Assembly: GCF_001310955.1 (NCBI RefSeq)
Contig: NZ_BAZX01000007.1
Location: forward strand, 1 to 64,000
Origin: Marinifilum fragile JCM 15579
GTDB lineage: Bacteria > Bacteroidota > Bacteroidia > Bacteroidales > Marinifilaceae
DNA length: 64,000 nt
Direction: 5' to 3'
A program made the position numbers and the translations under genes. Of this stretch, positions 5,658-35,614 are shown in pieces (within the stretch, counting starts at the first letter, position 1; each line of letters opens with the position of its first letter). The notes beneath the pieces are model-generated. The model had not been told where the DNA came from, made no database searches, and saw only the letters and a program-made list of their open reading frames with translations.

Positions 5658-7016
5658 ATGGATAAAAACAGCCAAAACGTATACGAATTAGAGAATGCCA
5701 AAGTAAGCAGCTTGCTGTGGAAGTATTTTTGGCCTGCATTTACAGGAGTTGTAATCAACTCGCTGTATAATGTGGTTGACCGAATATTTATTGGCCAAGG
5801 CGTTGGATCGATAGCACTTTCCGGATTAAGTGCTGTGTATCCCATCATGTTAATTCTTATGGCATTTGGAATGTTAATAGGAATGGGCGCAGGTGTTCGT
5901 ATCTCAATTAATTTAGGGAAGAAAGACTTTAAAAGGGCAGAATGGGTATTGGGTAACTCTTTTATTCTAATGCTCATTGTATCTGCATTCATTACCGTTT
6001 TAGGATTTACAATTAAAGATCCTCTTTTACGACTGTTTGGAGTGTCGACAGATACCATGGATATTGCAAATGAATATCTAAATATTATACTTTATGGTGC
6101 TGTATTTAATGTGGTTGGATTTTCTTTAAACAATCTGATTCGTTCTGAAGGGAATGCAAAAATTGCCATGTACTCCATGTTAATTAGTGCAGGAACCAAC
6201 ATTGTTCTCGATCCTATTTTTATATTCCTGCTTGATATGGGAGTTGCAGGAGCAGCATATGCAACAATTATTTCTCAGCTGATATTGTGCATCTGGGTGA
6301 TCAAACACTTTAGAAGTGACCGATCCGTAATAAGGTTGAGCGCCACTAATTTTAAGCTTAATCCACAAATCATTTGGTATATCATTAGCATTGGATTTGC
6401 ACCATTTTCTATGCAAATTGCAGGTAGCTTTGTGCAAGGATTATACAATATACAGCTAATTAAATTTAGCAATGATGTAGCCATTGCGGCCATGGGGGTC
6501 ATCAATTCGGTTGCCATGTTAATTGTTATGACCGTTATTGCCATAAACATGGCATCACAACCAATTTTTGGATTTAGTCATGGTGCAAAACACTACCAGA
6601 GGGTAAAAGAGACGTTGAAAATTTGTATGACTGCAGCCACAGGAATTGCAGTAATTGGTTGGATATTGGTTCAGCTGTTCCCGGAAACCATGGTACTGGC
6701 ATTTAATAGTACGGATAAGGAATTATTGCAAGTAGGAGCCAAAGGACTTAGAACATTCTTGATTGCACTACCGATAGTCGGATTTCAGATCATAGTAGGA
6801 AACTACTTTCAATCCATCGGAAGAGCAGGAGTGTCTACCTTGCTTACTTTAATGCGACAAGTAATTCTTTTGATTCCGATTCTTTTTATCCTACCAGATT
6901 ATTTGGGGCTTGATGGAGTTTGGTTTGCAGGGCCAATTTCGGATGTAGGTTCAGCTATGATAGCGGGAATCTTTATCATCAGAGAGTTCAGAAAGTTGAA
7001 TACTCAAATTGCTTAA
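5658..7016 (+). CDS. MATE family efflux transporter
   Basis: A 452-residue inner-membrane protein with about twelve hydrophobic segments and MATE-family features (WPAFTGVVINSLYNVVDRIFIGQGVG near the N-terminus). It probably exports a cationic drug or metabolite using a Na+ or H+ gradient. The ATG at 5658 is chosen over the TTG at 5619, since MDKNSQNVYELENAKVSSLL is a normal cytoplasmic N-terminus. The two halves each carry a MatE domain. The substrate cannot be predicted. Confidence 0.92.
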   Translation: MDKNSQNVYELENAKVSSLLWKYFWPAFTGVVINSLYNVVDRIFIGQGVGSIALSGLSAVYPIMLILMAFGMLIGMGAGVRISINLGKKDFKRAEWVLGNSFILMLIVSAFITVLGFTIKDPLLRLFGVSTDTMDIANEYLNIILYGAVFNVVGFSLNNLIRSEGNAKIAMYSMLISAGTNIVLDPIFIFLLDMGVAGAAYATIISQLILCIWVIKHFRSDRSVIRLSATNFKLNPQIIWYIISIGFAPFSMQIAGSFVQGLYNIQLIKFSNDVAIAAMGVINSVAMLIVMTVIAINMASQPIFGFSHGAKHYQRVKETLKICMTAATGIAVIGWILVQLFPETMVLAFNSTDKELLQVGAKGLRTFLIALPIVGFQIIVGNYFQSIGRAGVSTLLTLMRQVILLIPILFILPDYLGLDGVWFAGPISDVGSAMIAGIFIIREFRKLNTQIA

Positions 7017-32368: not shown

Positions 32369-32446
32369 CTCTACTTGATAATACTACTCAAAAATCATCT
32401 GATACTAATTAGTATTGCTATTTCATATTTGTGCATAAAGATTAAC

Positions 32447-32473
32447 TCCTTCAGGAGAGGGGTAGGATGAGGT
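32447..32473. repeat. Half copy of the CTCCTT/AGGAG element
   Basis: CTCCTTCAGGAGAGG followed by GGATGAGG, matching the right half of the element at 31073-31210. Confidence 0.5.
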
Positions 32474-32542
32474 AAGAACGCAAAAAAGGGCAACACCAGA
32501 GTGTGCCCCATGCATTAGTCCTTAAAATTTATAAAAATGGAA

Positions 32543-33289
32543 TTAATCTTCGGTGGTTTCATCCTCAATGCCACCATTGGCATTTCGGGTTTTACGAGCA
32601 CGCGCTTTAGCGTTTACCTCTTCAATTCTTCGCTCGATGGCATCCAATAAAGCACCATACTTATCGGGCTGCACCATATTCCAGTTGTTCAAATGCGGCA
32701 ACAACTTTTCGTTAATGATGTTGCGAAGAATGTTCTTCTGACTCGATGGAGCAATCACTTCCTCAATTTGCGACTCCTGAGCGTTCAGCTCCTCGTAGCA
32801 AAGCTCAACATTTTTTAAGGATGCCTTTGCTTTTGCAAGACAATCACTTACGCCAATCATTTTATCAATCTTGGCCTTCATAACAGGCTCTTCAAGTTTT
32901 GAGAACAGGATATTGGCATTGGTAAACTGCCCTTCGAAACTTAAGTTGTGAAGCTGGCGATTGTACTTGCCCATTAAATCCCAAATTTCGTTGGCATCAT
33001 TGGCAATTTCTTCACTGGTCATGTTTCGGTTGGCAATAATAAAGCCTTTCAAACAAGTAAAGTCATTGTCGAAAATATCGTCCAATTCCTTTAATTCCTT
33101 GCTAACAGAACCTCTTTTATTGTACTTGATACTGTTTTCCAATACCGAACGTTCTTGCTTCTCTTCAGCAATAATTTGGGTAAAAATAGGATCTTCACTG
33201 GTATCAATTTTTACACTTTCTGTTTCAATGGTTTTGCCGATACTATTGACCTCATCACCATTGCAGTAAAAATAAATGCTTGTTGACAT
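32543..33289 (-). CDS. Hypothetical helical protein, DUF6261-like
   Basis: A 248-residue, charged, mostly helical protein without signal peptide or membrane segment. Features are LKELDDIFDNDFTCLKGFI, a second helical half with several KAKAS/EELNAQ stretches, and an acidic tail after an R/A/K-rich patch (NAKARARKTRN). Spacing and composition resemble DUF6261-type proteins of Bacteroidota, which have no known function; this assignment is weak. Its start lies about 200 bases from the 41-bp palindrome array, which sits in its upstream region. Confidence 0.65.
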   Translation of the reverse strand: MSTSIYFYCNGDEVNSIGKTIETESVKIDTSEDPIFTQIIAEEKQERSVLENSIKYNKRGSVSKELKELDDIFDNDFTCLKGFIIANRNMTSEEIANDANEIWDLMGKYNRQLHNLSFEGQFTNANILFSKLEEPVMKAKIDKMIGVSDCLAKAKASLKNVELCYEELNAQESQIEEVIAPSSQKNILRNIINEKLLPHLNNWNMVQPDKYGALLDAIERRIEEVNAKARARKTRNANGGIEDETTED

Positions 33290-33484
33290 TTTGTTTTAGT
33301 TTTTTGTGTTAAGGGCTAAAAGCAATCAAAATTTAAGAAATATAATTTAGGAAGTAATGTTAATAACTGTTAAAAATGTATGATAAGTGAAATAAAGTAA
33401 GAATGTCTTGGTTGATTAAACCAATTATTATAACTTCATTAGTTTTTGTCGCATTTTTAAGATAAATATTGATGTGGTGATTGT
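33290..33484. other. Intergenic region leading into the palindrome array
   Basis: AT-rich and without a credible gene. TTTGTCGCATTT at 33445-33456 may be one more decayed array unit, one base out of register. Confidence 0.4.
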
Positions 33485-33947
33485 TTTGCGCTACAGATAC
33501 CGTCATTGCTGATCTTAGACTTCTTTTTGTGGCAAATGATTCATTCAGATGGATGGGAAGCAAAATTTTGCACAAAATTTCCCTTTCCGATGAATTTTGA
33601 GTGTTCTTTTGTACAAAATAATACGATTGGATGCTTGAGAGAGGCAATTTTTTACAAAATAGTCGTCTTTAATAATCTTGACCTGAAATTTTGTACAAAA
33701 TCGTTACGTCTATTGATATTCAATACGAATTTTCTACAAAATCAGCGTAAAAATAGATCTAAACGACCAGGTTTGTACAAAATTTAGACGATTAACGATC
33801 CTGAACGATAAATTTGTACAAAATTCCAAATTTTAACGATTAAAACGCCCAGATTTGTACAAAATAGACACCCATATCGATCTTTAAGCTTCTATTTGCA
33901 CAAAATAAAGGCCACAACTCATTTGCTCATTATTTTGTGTGCAAACT
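33485..33947. repeat. Strict 41-bp-period array of short palindromes with unrelated 29-nt spacers
   Basis: Nine units share TTTGTACAAAAT (variants TTTGCACAAAAT, TTTTTACAAAAT, TTTCTACAAAAT). Their ACAAAAT starts are at 33572, 33613, 33654, 33695, 33736, 33777, 33818, 33859 and 33900: eight intervals of exactly 41. Between motifs lie 29-nt stretches that do not resemble each other. Decayed motifs continue in exact register at 33485 (7 of 12 matches), 33526 (9 of 12) and 33936 (9 of 12). The core TTTGTACAAA is a perfect palindrome. 41 is not a multiple of 3, so this is not a repeat protein. No cas gene, tRNA or transposase abuts it. CRISPR-like geometry, phased operator array or nucleoprotein site are the options. 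Confidence 0.93.
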
Positions 33948-34198
33948 ACATTCAATTCATCTTTTTACTGAGTTTTATATTGGAATATGTTGATATTGGT
34001 GTTGCTTGAAATGTTGGTGAGATATGTTAATATATAAATTTTGATTTGTACTGATATGTTTTTTGGAAATAATGAGGGTGTTGGTTGGGGATTTTGTAGA
34101 TTTGGAGTTTTAGATGAAAGATTGGATTGTTCTTTAATATAGTAAGGTAAACCAAACTTTTATTAGTGAAATAAAACAATTGGTTGGGTTATCCCAAC
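33948..34198. other. Intergenic region right of the array
   Basis: AT- and GTT-rich sequence without a gene. A hairpin-like TTGGG-TTAT-CCCAA occurs at 34184-34197, next to the inverted repeat arm at 34199. Confidence 0.4.
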
Positions 34199-34212
34199 GT
34201 TATGGGCAAGCA
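34199..34212. repeat. Left arm of inverted repeat around an orphan ORF
   Basis: GTTATGGGCAAGCA. Its reverse complement, with one mismatch, is found at 34661-34674 (TGCTAGCCCATAAC). The two arms bracket exactly one small gene. Confidence 0.6.
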
Positions 34213-34267
34213 TACTACATAACCCAGATTAATGATCGATGATATTAAAGTTAATAGACGAAAGTAA

Positions 34268-34660
34268 ATGTTGACATTGGATAAATTGAGCGAATTAAAA
34301 CAATACAAAAAATTCATACTAATTGTTACAGTTTTTGGCGCAATAATTTTCGCTATAATATTAATACAAGGTTCGATAGAAAGAAAAGAATTTAGATCTT
34401 CCTATGATGAGCTAATATCCAAAGAAAAATCTGGCATAGTGAAGTTAATATCCACTAATCGTGGAGGAAATACTATTATATTGGATAAACTAATTGATAA
34501 TAGAATCTGCTTCTTAAATTTCACCGTTGAAACACGTGAAGAGTGGGATATTCATCAATTTATTAGCCAAGGAGATTCAGTTTACAAAGCAAAAAATTCT
34601 ATGGAATTAATTGTGATAAACAGAAATACAAAAATTAAAACCAGTTTAAAAATTGAATAA
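34268..34660 (+). CDS. Orphan small membrane-anchored protein
   Basis: A 130-residue protein with one N-terminal transmembrane helix (about residues 16-35, FILIVTVFGAIIFAIILIQG) and a soluble domain predicted to be mostly strand. I recognise no family. It is bracketed by a 14-bp inverted repeat whose right arm begins immediately after the stop codon, a layout resembling a mobile gene cassette. Base composition is more AT-rich than the surrounding core genes. Confidence 0.6.
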   Translation: MLTLDKLSELKQYKKFILIVTVFGAIIFAIILIQGSIERKEFRSSYDELISKEKSGIVKLISTNRGGNTIILDKLIDNRICFLNFTVETREEWDIHQFISQGDSVYKAKNSMELIVINRNTKIKTSLKIE

Positions 34661-34674
34661 TGCTAGCCCATAAC
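34661..34674. repeat. Right arm of inverted repeat around an orphan ORF
   Basis: TGCTAGCCCATAAC begins one base after the ORF stop codon and pairs with 34199-34212 (13 of 14). Confidence 0.6.
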
Positions 34675-34766
34675 AAAAGTTAAAATTAAAGGGCGGTGAC
34701 GCTCAACTAGATAATGTAACAAAAACAATAAACGGTAGCGGCTTTGATATGGCAACATGAATAAAT

Positions 34767-34847
34767 CCCCTCGCTAGCGCAGATTTGTAATCTGTGCTAA
34801 GTATGTAAATAAACTATTAGCAAGGATTATAAATCTACATCGGCATT
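34767..34847. repeat. REP element left of the RAYT transposase
   Basis: An 81-bp copy starting CCCCTCGCT. It holds a hairpin AGCGCAGATT-TGT-AATCTGTGCT (34776-34798) and a second, weaker inverted motif (AAGGATTATAAATCT) near its end. It is nearly identical to 35533-35614 on the other side of the transposase gene. Confidence 0.75.
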
Positions 34848-34949
34848 GTGCAAAATAAGCCAGTATTTGAATTAATTTATTAGTCTTATGCACAAACGTT
34901 TGACTATTACAGTTGGGCTTTTGCATATTTATATTTCAAACTAATATCT

Positions 34950-35480
34950 ATGAGTCGTAAGTATAAGTTCTATAATCCAGAAGGTGTTTATTTTATAAGC
35001 TTTGCAGTTCAAGGCTGGGTTGATGTGTTTACACGTAATTGTTATAAAGATATTCTTATTAAGAATCTGGATTATTGTCAGAAAAATAAAGGATTGGAAC
35101 TATTTGCTTGGTGTATAATGACCAATCATGTTCATTTGATAGCACGTGCCAAAGGAGATTTTTTATTATCAGATATCTTAAGAGATTTTAAAAAGTTTAC
35201 TTCAAAAGCAATTATTGAGGCAATTAAAGCTAATAATCAGGAAAGCAGAAAAGAGTGGCTGCTTCAAAAGTTTGCAACAGAAAAAGGTAATCGGTTTTGG
35301 AGAGCTGATAACAAACCAATAGAATTATGGAGTAATAAGGTTATTGATCAAAAACTGAACTATCTACATAATAATCCGGTTGAGGAAGGGCTTGTATTTA
35401 GAGCTGAGGATTATGTGTATAGTAGTGCCGTTGATTATAGTGGTGAGAAGGGTTTGTTGGATATTTTGGTTATAAAATGA
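34950..35480 (+). CDS. REP-associated tyrosine transposase (RAYT, Y1/IS200-like)
   Basis: A 176-residue single-copy-type transposase of the Y1 superfamily. It shows YFISFAVQGWVDVFTR near the N-terminus, the HUH metal motif MTNHVHLIA, and the C-terminal LNYLHNNPVEEGLV with VYSSAVDY, where the catalytic tyrosine lies in the helix region before the end. RAYTs nick and rejoin REP hairpins and are domesticated rather than self-spreading. It is flanked by 81/82-bp REP copies and further REP hairpins occur to 37717, which fits the assignment. RAYTs are usually stably inherited. Confidence 0.9.
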   Translation: MSRKYKFYNPEGVYFISFAVQGWVDVFTRNCYKDILIKNLDYCQKNKGLELFAWCIMTNHVHLIARAKGDFLLSDILRDFKKFTSKAIIEAIKANNQESRKEWLLQKFATEKGNRFWRADNKPIELWSNKVIDQKLNYLHNNPVEEGLVFRAEDYVYSSAVDYSGEKGLLDILVIK

Positions 35481-35490
35481 TGGGCACGGA

Positions 35491-35614
35491 TTGCAAATCC
35501 GCTCCAGCGAGGGGCAGCTTCACGAATCCTTGCCCCTCGCTAGCGCAGATTTGTAATCTGTGCTAAGTATGTAATTAAACTATTAGCCAAGGATTATAAA
35601 TCTGTATCGGCATT
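35491..35614. repeat. REP pair (BIME-like) right of the RAYT transposase
   Basis: An inverted REP hairpin (GGATT-GCA-AATCC, 35489-35501 region) is followed by AGCGAGGGGCA (35506-35516), which pairs perfectly with TGCCCCTCGCT (35531-35541). Then comes the 82-bp direct copy 35533-35614 of the left element, with one inserted base and a few changes. This opposed arrangement is typical of BIMEs mobilised by RAYTs. Confidence 0.75.

Follow-up and report, generated by a model that had tools for sequence, protein, structure and literature searches.

A tandem array of short palindromes beside a gene for a small helical protein was found in the 64,000-nucleotide stretch of Marinifilum fragile JCM 15579 analysed here (the window), and the recurrence of this pairing at other loci points to an undescribed DNA-organising or regulatory system. 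Genes of the DUF6261 family generally carried phased arrays upstream: a tandem array at a lag of 40–44 bp preceded the gene in 58 of 74 regions, orthologs of related species included, and no such array followed it in any of 61 downstream regions. The pairing of a phased array with DUF6261 was undescribed in the open-licence literature searched by titles and abstracts. It offers a first testable role for DUF6261 and for three protein families that Pfam does not name. Should the pairing prove functional, the chromosomes of these Bacteroidales would carry many protein–array modules in which spacing follows the helix while sequence evolves freely; such modules would form a natural collection of orthogonal recognition pairs and allow selection on helical phasing to be tested directly.

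The array in the window

Nine TTTGTACAAA-type palindromes, five exact and four with one change, spanned 33567–33895; they started at 33567, 33608, 33649, 33690, 33731, 33772, 33813, 33854 and 33895, each of the eight steps measuring exactly 41 bp. This recount agreed in copy number and spacing with the original prediction, which had also described three decayed copies in register at 33485, 33526 and 33936 (visible near 33484, 33525 and 33935) and had put the array 200–650 bp upstream of the minus-strand gene at 32543–33289, a distance that held. At up to one mismatch, TTTGTACAAA had 21 matches in the window, nine of them in the array, versus 8.1 expected, and 21 was reached by 0 of 100 shuffles. 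Over the whole source genome the enrichment was not strong (38 matches versus 29 for the reversed pattern). Pairs of TTTGTACAAA at 41 bp were present in all five Marinifilum genomes searched, the source genome included. The features are listed in Table 1.

Table 1. Array elements and neighbouring genes in the window
Feature	Position	Strand	Remarks
Core array, nine copies of dyad A (TTTTGTACAAAAT and variants)	33566..33906	no strand	
Starts of the 13-nt cores of dyad A	33566, 33607, 33648, 33689, 33730, 33771, 33812, 33853, 33894		
Two decayed units, left end	33484..33565	no strand	Same 41-bp register
One decayed unit, right end	33935..33975	no strand	Same register
Core B, clearest example in the window (ATCGATCTT; consensus ATYGATYTT)	33876..33884		Centre 20 bp past dyad A
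DUF6261 family gene (PF19775), 248 aa	32543..33289	-	Predicted all-helical; presumed partner of the array
Small ORF, 130 aa	34268..34660	+	Far side of the array; no Pfam match; putative member of the unit
REP-associated tyrosine transposase (RAYT), 176 aa	34950..35480	+	NF047646, 94 bits (cut-off 80); not a constant partner

The claim that the spacers between the palindromes, counted as 29 nt, share no sequence was not confirmed. The nine in-register intervals (28 nt, between the 13-nt cores) had a mean pairwise identity of 0.344, compared with 0.266 (sd 0.014) for shuffled and 0.267 for rotated intervals, and 0.344 was reached in 0 of 2000 cases either way. In 32 units, taken from the window and relatives, a second core, ATYGATYTT, followed each palindrome at half a period, its centre lying 20 bp further on, with columns A24, G27, A28 and T29 conserved at 88%, 84%, 88% and 91%, respectively; apart from the example in Table 1, it appeared in weaker form in the units of the window array. 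In the consensus of the 32 units only the first palindrome reached 6 of 7 complementary pairs; the second core of this group was thus conserved, with only weak symmetry.

Against its ortholog in Marinifilum sp. D737, block 33526–33947 aligned through 422 columns without a gap, 313 of them matches and 109 mismatches; gap events numbered 2 in the left flank, where the first decayed unit lies, and 4 in the right. The units were collinear, with order, number, length and the 41-bp step kept and none gained or lost, while their sequence drifted, in keeping with the original proposal that spacing is constrained more than sequence. In orthologous DUF6261 arrays of two Marinifilum species (L256 4024–4350 and L263 2181–2550), most units viewed had a symmetric stem change, CCTGAA/TTCAGG versus CCTCAA/TTGAGG, with loop and flanks unchanged.

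DUF6261 genes and further families with phased arrays

The gene next to the window array matched the DUF6261 Pfam model with 28.9 bits (cut-off 27), and the source genome gave 11 matches to the model at an E-value limit of 0.001, of which 10 exceeded the cut-off. The distribution was patchy: all 5 genomes of the genus had DUF6261, as did 9 of the 60 sampled across the order and 6 of the 296 across the phylum. An IMG/VR search with one DUF6261 protein gave no relative; the plasmid search placed the window protein on no plasmid and yielded one Prevotella replicon with another DUF6261; the phage search yielded one unannotated faecal scaffold, whose remaining ORFs looked bacterial by eye. The structure model consisted of helices only (mean pLDDT 92.3, pTM 0.62), with no recognised DNA-binding fold or clear PDB relative among the 50 fold matches per list. 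A basic C-terminal 14-mer had a median net charge of +4, an uncontrolled figure taken as the best within the last 60 residues and given no weight here.

For the test of pairing, upstream regions of up to 900 bp were used, those below 200 bp were left out, and identical ones were counted once. L143, L150 and L185 (no intact ORF) and L195 (N-filled) were omitted, the L143 gene, which has an internal stop, re-entering as L270 among the 16 misses. The lag was 41 bp in 32 arrays, 42 in 22, 43 in three and 40 in one, whereas the control bands 28–32, 30–34, 35–39, 46–50 and 52–56 bp gave 1, 1, 0, 1 and 0 of 74, respectively. Arrays preceded 36 of 46 genes in Marinifilum and 22 of 28 in other genera, with 13 to 681 bp (median 204) between the best array stretch and the start codon. 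In the same test, 444 background genes of M. flexuosum gave 14 upstream arrays, two of them those of DUF6261 genes, and 9 downstream, and 222 genes of one genome without DUF6261 gave 0 and 2. The 16 loci below threshold included some with periods of 83–127 bp and some with none. Arrays of 41 bp also lay by the start of two DUF6261 genes detected by protein search, in Prevotella nigrescens and on a human faecal scaffold (scores 0.94 and 0.58). Several paralogs in the source genome had upstream arrays of the same period and different sequence, while the nearest paralog of the window protein (39% identical) had the TTTGTACAAA palindrome in common; overall, array sequences mostly differed among paralogs but on average had the same layout of two dyads.

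Phased arrays were not confined to DUF6261. A survey found 18 tandem arrays (20–99 bp) in 800 kb of M. flexuosum and 2 in 400 kb of genome G006, and from such background arrays three more families were traced (fam241, fam196 and fam198; 220–260 aa, no Pfam match above cut-off). One seed locus per family had been picked for its array, the other members not. In fam241 (228 aa) a 41/42-bp array lay downstream at 12 of 12 loci and upstream at none. In fam196 (249 aa; 7–9 copies in five genomes) a downstream array at 20–22, 40–43 or 61–64 bp was found at 23 of 26 loci, three of 29 having been dropped for want of an ORF; upstream arrays and downstream arrays in other bands were each seen at 0 of 26. 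In fam198 (237 aa) an upstream array of 21 or 42 bp was found at 9 of 12 loci, eight of the 9 from close relatives; the three misses included one interrupted gene and one wrongly picked reading frame. The arrays thus kept a fixed side per gene family, with periods of about 21, 42 or 63 bp.

The fam196 model was likewise all-helical (mean pLDDT 93.2), with no clear solved structural relative among the fold matches listed. The fold matches listed for both models were generic helical ones; they included Nop5 for fam196 (Z 7.0 over 88 residues), which lay inside the stated noise of the tool. Homology among DUF6261, fam241 and fam196 was rejected (hhalign probability below 2% for all three pairs), and a weak match of the fam241 seed to the DUF6261 profile (7e-5, two sequences searched) was not upheld. 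Two further arrays were noted: at L201 7300–7600, a 21-bp array with a CTTAGCCAAA core lay upstream of a protein of about 238 aa without Pfam match (6179–6892, minus strand), possibly a fifth array-bearing family; at L207 9563–9826 in M. flexuosum, a 44-bp (2 x 22) array, outside the 41–42 class, lay near an RseC-like gene.

Copies of some arrays occurred apart from their genes. A 385-bp copy of the DUF6261 array on contig C1 of the source genome, 78% identical and with unit order kept, sat between convergent genes on contig C10. The CCGCCAGCG array of one M. flexuosum DUF6261 gene had two unlinked repeats (L204 and L273), one of whose places also carried the array at the corresponding site of the source genome (L275); a third CCGCCAGCG match, at C7:41130 of M. 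flexuosum, lay in no array and was discarded. The array at L211 was related to that of DUF6261 locus L137 (72% over 303 columns). Distant binding sites would give this picture, and functionless duplication would do so too. In addition, 41/42-bp arrays of the TTTGTACAAA type were present without DUF6261 in the examined locus at L003, L004, L036, L075, L085, L019 and L071, the last six in a Marinifilum MAG, Carboxylicivirga, Dysgonamonadaceae, Sunxiuqinia and a Bacteroidales MAG; L003, from M. flexuosum, had a RAYT-like ORF (1752–2201) beside its 41-bp array. Among the matches listed, Litoreibacter and Roseovarius had many dispersed elements of about 51 bp that contain a pair of TTTGTACAAA palindromes at a distance of exactly 41 bp (for example L008, L011–L013, L015, L017, L007, L016 and L029), a spacing that was part of the search pattern and hence selected for; the Litoreibacter copies viewed had an inner dyad ATGGG...CCCAT midway, a layout like that of the Marinifilum unit. 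These matches were rejected as arrays, being dispersed two-copy elements.

Unit architecture and possible roles of the array

When the 58 DUF6261 arrays were aligned on their best dyad, the score was 0.376, versus 0.262 (sd 0.007) in 200 column shuffles. A second dyad stood out at offsets of -21 (z 13.1), -20 (z 3.9), +20 (z 7.3) and +21 bp (z 8.6), all other offsets having z below 2 except -2 to -1 (z 2.6–2.9). Because the two dyads occupy different columns, the second is not explained by periodicity alone. This two-dyad layout is an average over the 58 arrays and not a property of each. The arms were more conserved than the remaining columns in 45 of 58 arrays. The original suggestion of a dimeric protein on one face of the helix agrees with dyad steps of four turns and with the two-turn step averaged over the 58 arrays.

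The reading preferred here, tentatively, is that the adjacent DUF6261 protein recognises the array as DNA, its dimers binding along one face of the helix. Each 41–42-bp unit would present dyads A and B about 20–21 bp, or two helical turns, apart; dimers on A and B would line up along one DNA face and form a nucleoprotein platform. The platform could autoregulate the DUF6261 gene itself; through array copies at other places in the genome it could affect chromosome structure or segregation. Different paralogs and families mostly keep different arrays. The reading rests on the pairing, the mostly private array sequences, the dyads, the helical multiples and the lack of a wobble excess in DUF6261 arrays. 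The sequences themselves show the pairing of array and gene, the period, the two dyads as an average, the mostly private sequence and the unlinked copies of some arrays; the adjacent protein as binder, DNA rather than RNA as its target and the effect of binding are inferences. Against DNA binding, DUF6261 arrays vary in arm length and their loops range from 0 to 11, unlike half-sites at a fixed spacing; the model without a recognised DNA-binding fold, the 16 loci below threshold, the lack of strong genome-wide enrichment of TTTGTACAAA and the arrays without DUF6261 in the examined locus also speak against this reading.

The main rival, considered unlikely although several observations speak for it, is that the array acts as RNA: its units would be transcribed and serve the adjacent helical protein as guides or decoys, in the manner of TIGR-Tas arrays or of type III toxin-antitoxin systems with their RNA antitoxins. 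The dual repeats half a unit apart, the 3–11 units, the place upstream or downstream of one small helical-protein gene, and sequences that agree inside a locus but vary across loci resemble the published TIGR arrays. The symmetric stem change with conserved loop in the L256 and L263 arrays would fit a hairpin as well. Pairing statistics differed between families. In DUF6261 arrays, broken pairs were G-T in 115 cases and A-C in 118 (332 versus 307 with longer arms, p 0.34). In 25 of these arrays the arms paired within their own unit and across units about equally (5.14 versus 5.07 of 9), own-unit pairing being higher in 16 and lower in 9 (p 0.36). For this comparison the dyad centre was set by odd/even cross-validation; where cross-unit pairing set it, a choice that disfavours pairing inside the unit, own exceeded cross in only 15 of 61 DUF6261 arrays. 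The equal numbers of G-T and A-C pairs and the absence of a within-unit gain favour DNA half-sites over an RNA hairpin in DUF6261 arrays. No wobble excess was seen in fam196 arrays either (G-T 71 versus A-C 74, and 159 versus 141). The 12 fam241 arrays had the same two dyads (z 15.7 at 0 and 7.8 at 21), but with 74 G-T against 46 A-C pairs (p 0.013) and arms pairing slightly better inside the unit in 7 of 8 arrays (p 0.02). Both observations favour an RNA hairpin in fam241, whose arrays may thus have an RNA role, and this wobble excess lowered the standing of DNA binding and raised that of RNA. Further points against RNA are that several DUF6261 arrays have nearly identical units, intervals included, which would give the same guides, and that the box C/D pattern was found in 0 of 58 and 0 of 12 consensuses and a Nop domain in none of the families listed (see below). 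Rfam over 32400–35600 gave nothing above the gathering score, with four sub-threshold miRNA matches.

The array might instead be the operator of another regulator, with the DUF6261 gene only as regulated target. An upstream position at a median of 204 bp before the start codon would suit an operator, but mostly paralog-specific arrays would require many different regulators, and the arrays of fam241 and fam196 lie downstream of the gene; such a role is considered improbable. A wider proposal is regarded as similarly doubtful, namely that several unrelated-looking families of small helical proteins in Bacteroidales each use their own phased two-dyad array as an address, array RNA or DNA directing the protein to matching arrays at other genomic sites.

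A mobile origin, with a REP-like minisatellite spread by RAYT and its location at DUF6261 genes due to insertion preference, is judged slightly less probable still. Two queries detected RAYT-like ORFs at 8 distinct DUF6261 loci and none in the 800-kb M. flexuosum sample, in which the NF047646 profile had one weak 33-bit match; array-only copies exist elsewhere, and 6 of 25 distinct RAYT loci in four genomes stood beside a 41/42-bp array, with one borderline. Conversely, 18–19 of the 25 had no such array, and most DUF6261 loci examined had no RAYT within the flanks examined. One side per gene family, locus-specific sequence, and the unit number and step kept in the D737 ortholog also argue against spreading by RAYT, which is regarded as a secondary association of the array. 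The chance that this is a CRISPR-like array with acquired spacers, as the short repeat and regular longer intervals might suggest, is negligible: the intervals are related and collinear across species, the array had no match in phage or plasmid records, and PADLOC, which includes cas models, matched no cas model among the 10 neighbouring proteins and DUF6261, as the original prediction had said of the neighbourhood.

Comparison with known systems

CRISPR-Cas systems have unrelated spacers that turn over, whereas the intervals in the window are related and align with those of one related species over 422 gap-free columns. In ParR/parC, TubR/tubC and Rep/iteron systems, phased tandem sites are bound by the protein of a neighbouring gene. 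The present arrays resemble them in that phased tandem sites adjoin the gene of the presumed binder, but they are chromosomal and multi-copy, their 41–42-bp units have two dyads, and the protein has no recognised DNA-binding fold. In type III toxin-antitoxin systems (ToxIN), tandem repeats lie upstream of one gene for an endoribonuclease of the ToxN/CptN/TenpN type, with a terminator separating the repeats from the toxin gene. The present loci likewise have tandem repeats ahead of one gene, but the protein here is the all-helical DUF6261, without a ToxN/CptN/TenpN-type match, and the one terminator-like site in 33200–34300 (34198–34183) lies beyond the array, with none between array and gene.

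As in REP/BIME–RAYT systems (PMC6006769), the palindromes are intergenic and a RAYT gene lies about 1 kb from the array, but the present arrays are tandem, phased and mostly private to their locus, and the GTAG/CGTC palindrome foot (the REP tag) was not conserved in the window units. BrickBuilt of Porphyromonas gingivalis, with 23-nt units forming one dispersed minisatellite-MITE family, is similar in consisting of intergenic tandem repeats in a Bacteroidales genome, and differs in that its abstract mentions no partner gene (PMC4596501).

TIGR-Tas (Faure et al. 2025, PMC12045711) is the nearest published look-alike, with a similar plan. TIGR arrays are described there as two alternating short repeats of 8–12 nt with variable intervals of 8–12 nt (about 9 nt), processed to 36-nt units; most often they comprise 5–15 units and lie upstream and/or downstream of a small solo protein, TasA; the system has a Nop-domain protein. 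Repeats of one locus are alike and those of different loci vary; they begin with UG and end with CCA (box D and box C). The UG...CCA pattern was found in 0 of 58 DUF6261 and 0 of 12 fam241 consensuses on either strand, and the arrays are therefore not classed as TIGR-Tas. No Nop family stood among the 25 listed out of the 109 Pfam families that 60 DUF6261 proteins matched, nor among 10 PDB profile hits with E up to 10 or the 50 matches listed per DUF6261 fold list. The present units do have a second dyad or core at half their length, but their intervals are often alike between units and nearly identical in several arrays, and DUF6261 arrays have no wobble excess. If the arrays do serve their proteins as addresses, they would represent a new self-addressed nucleic-acid-guided class, parallel to TIGR-Tas and not derived from it.
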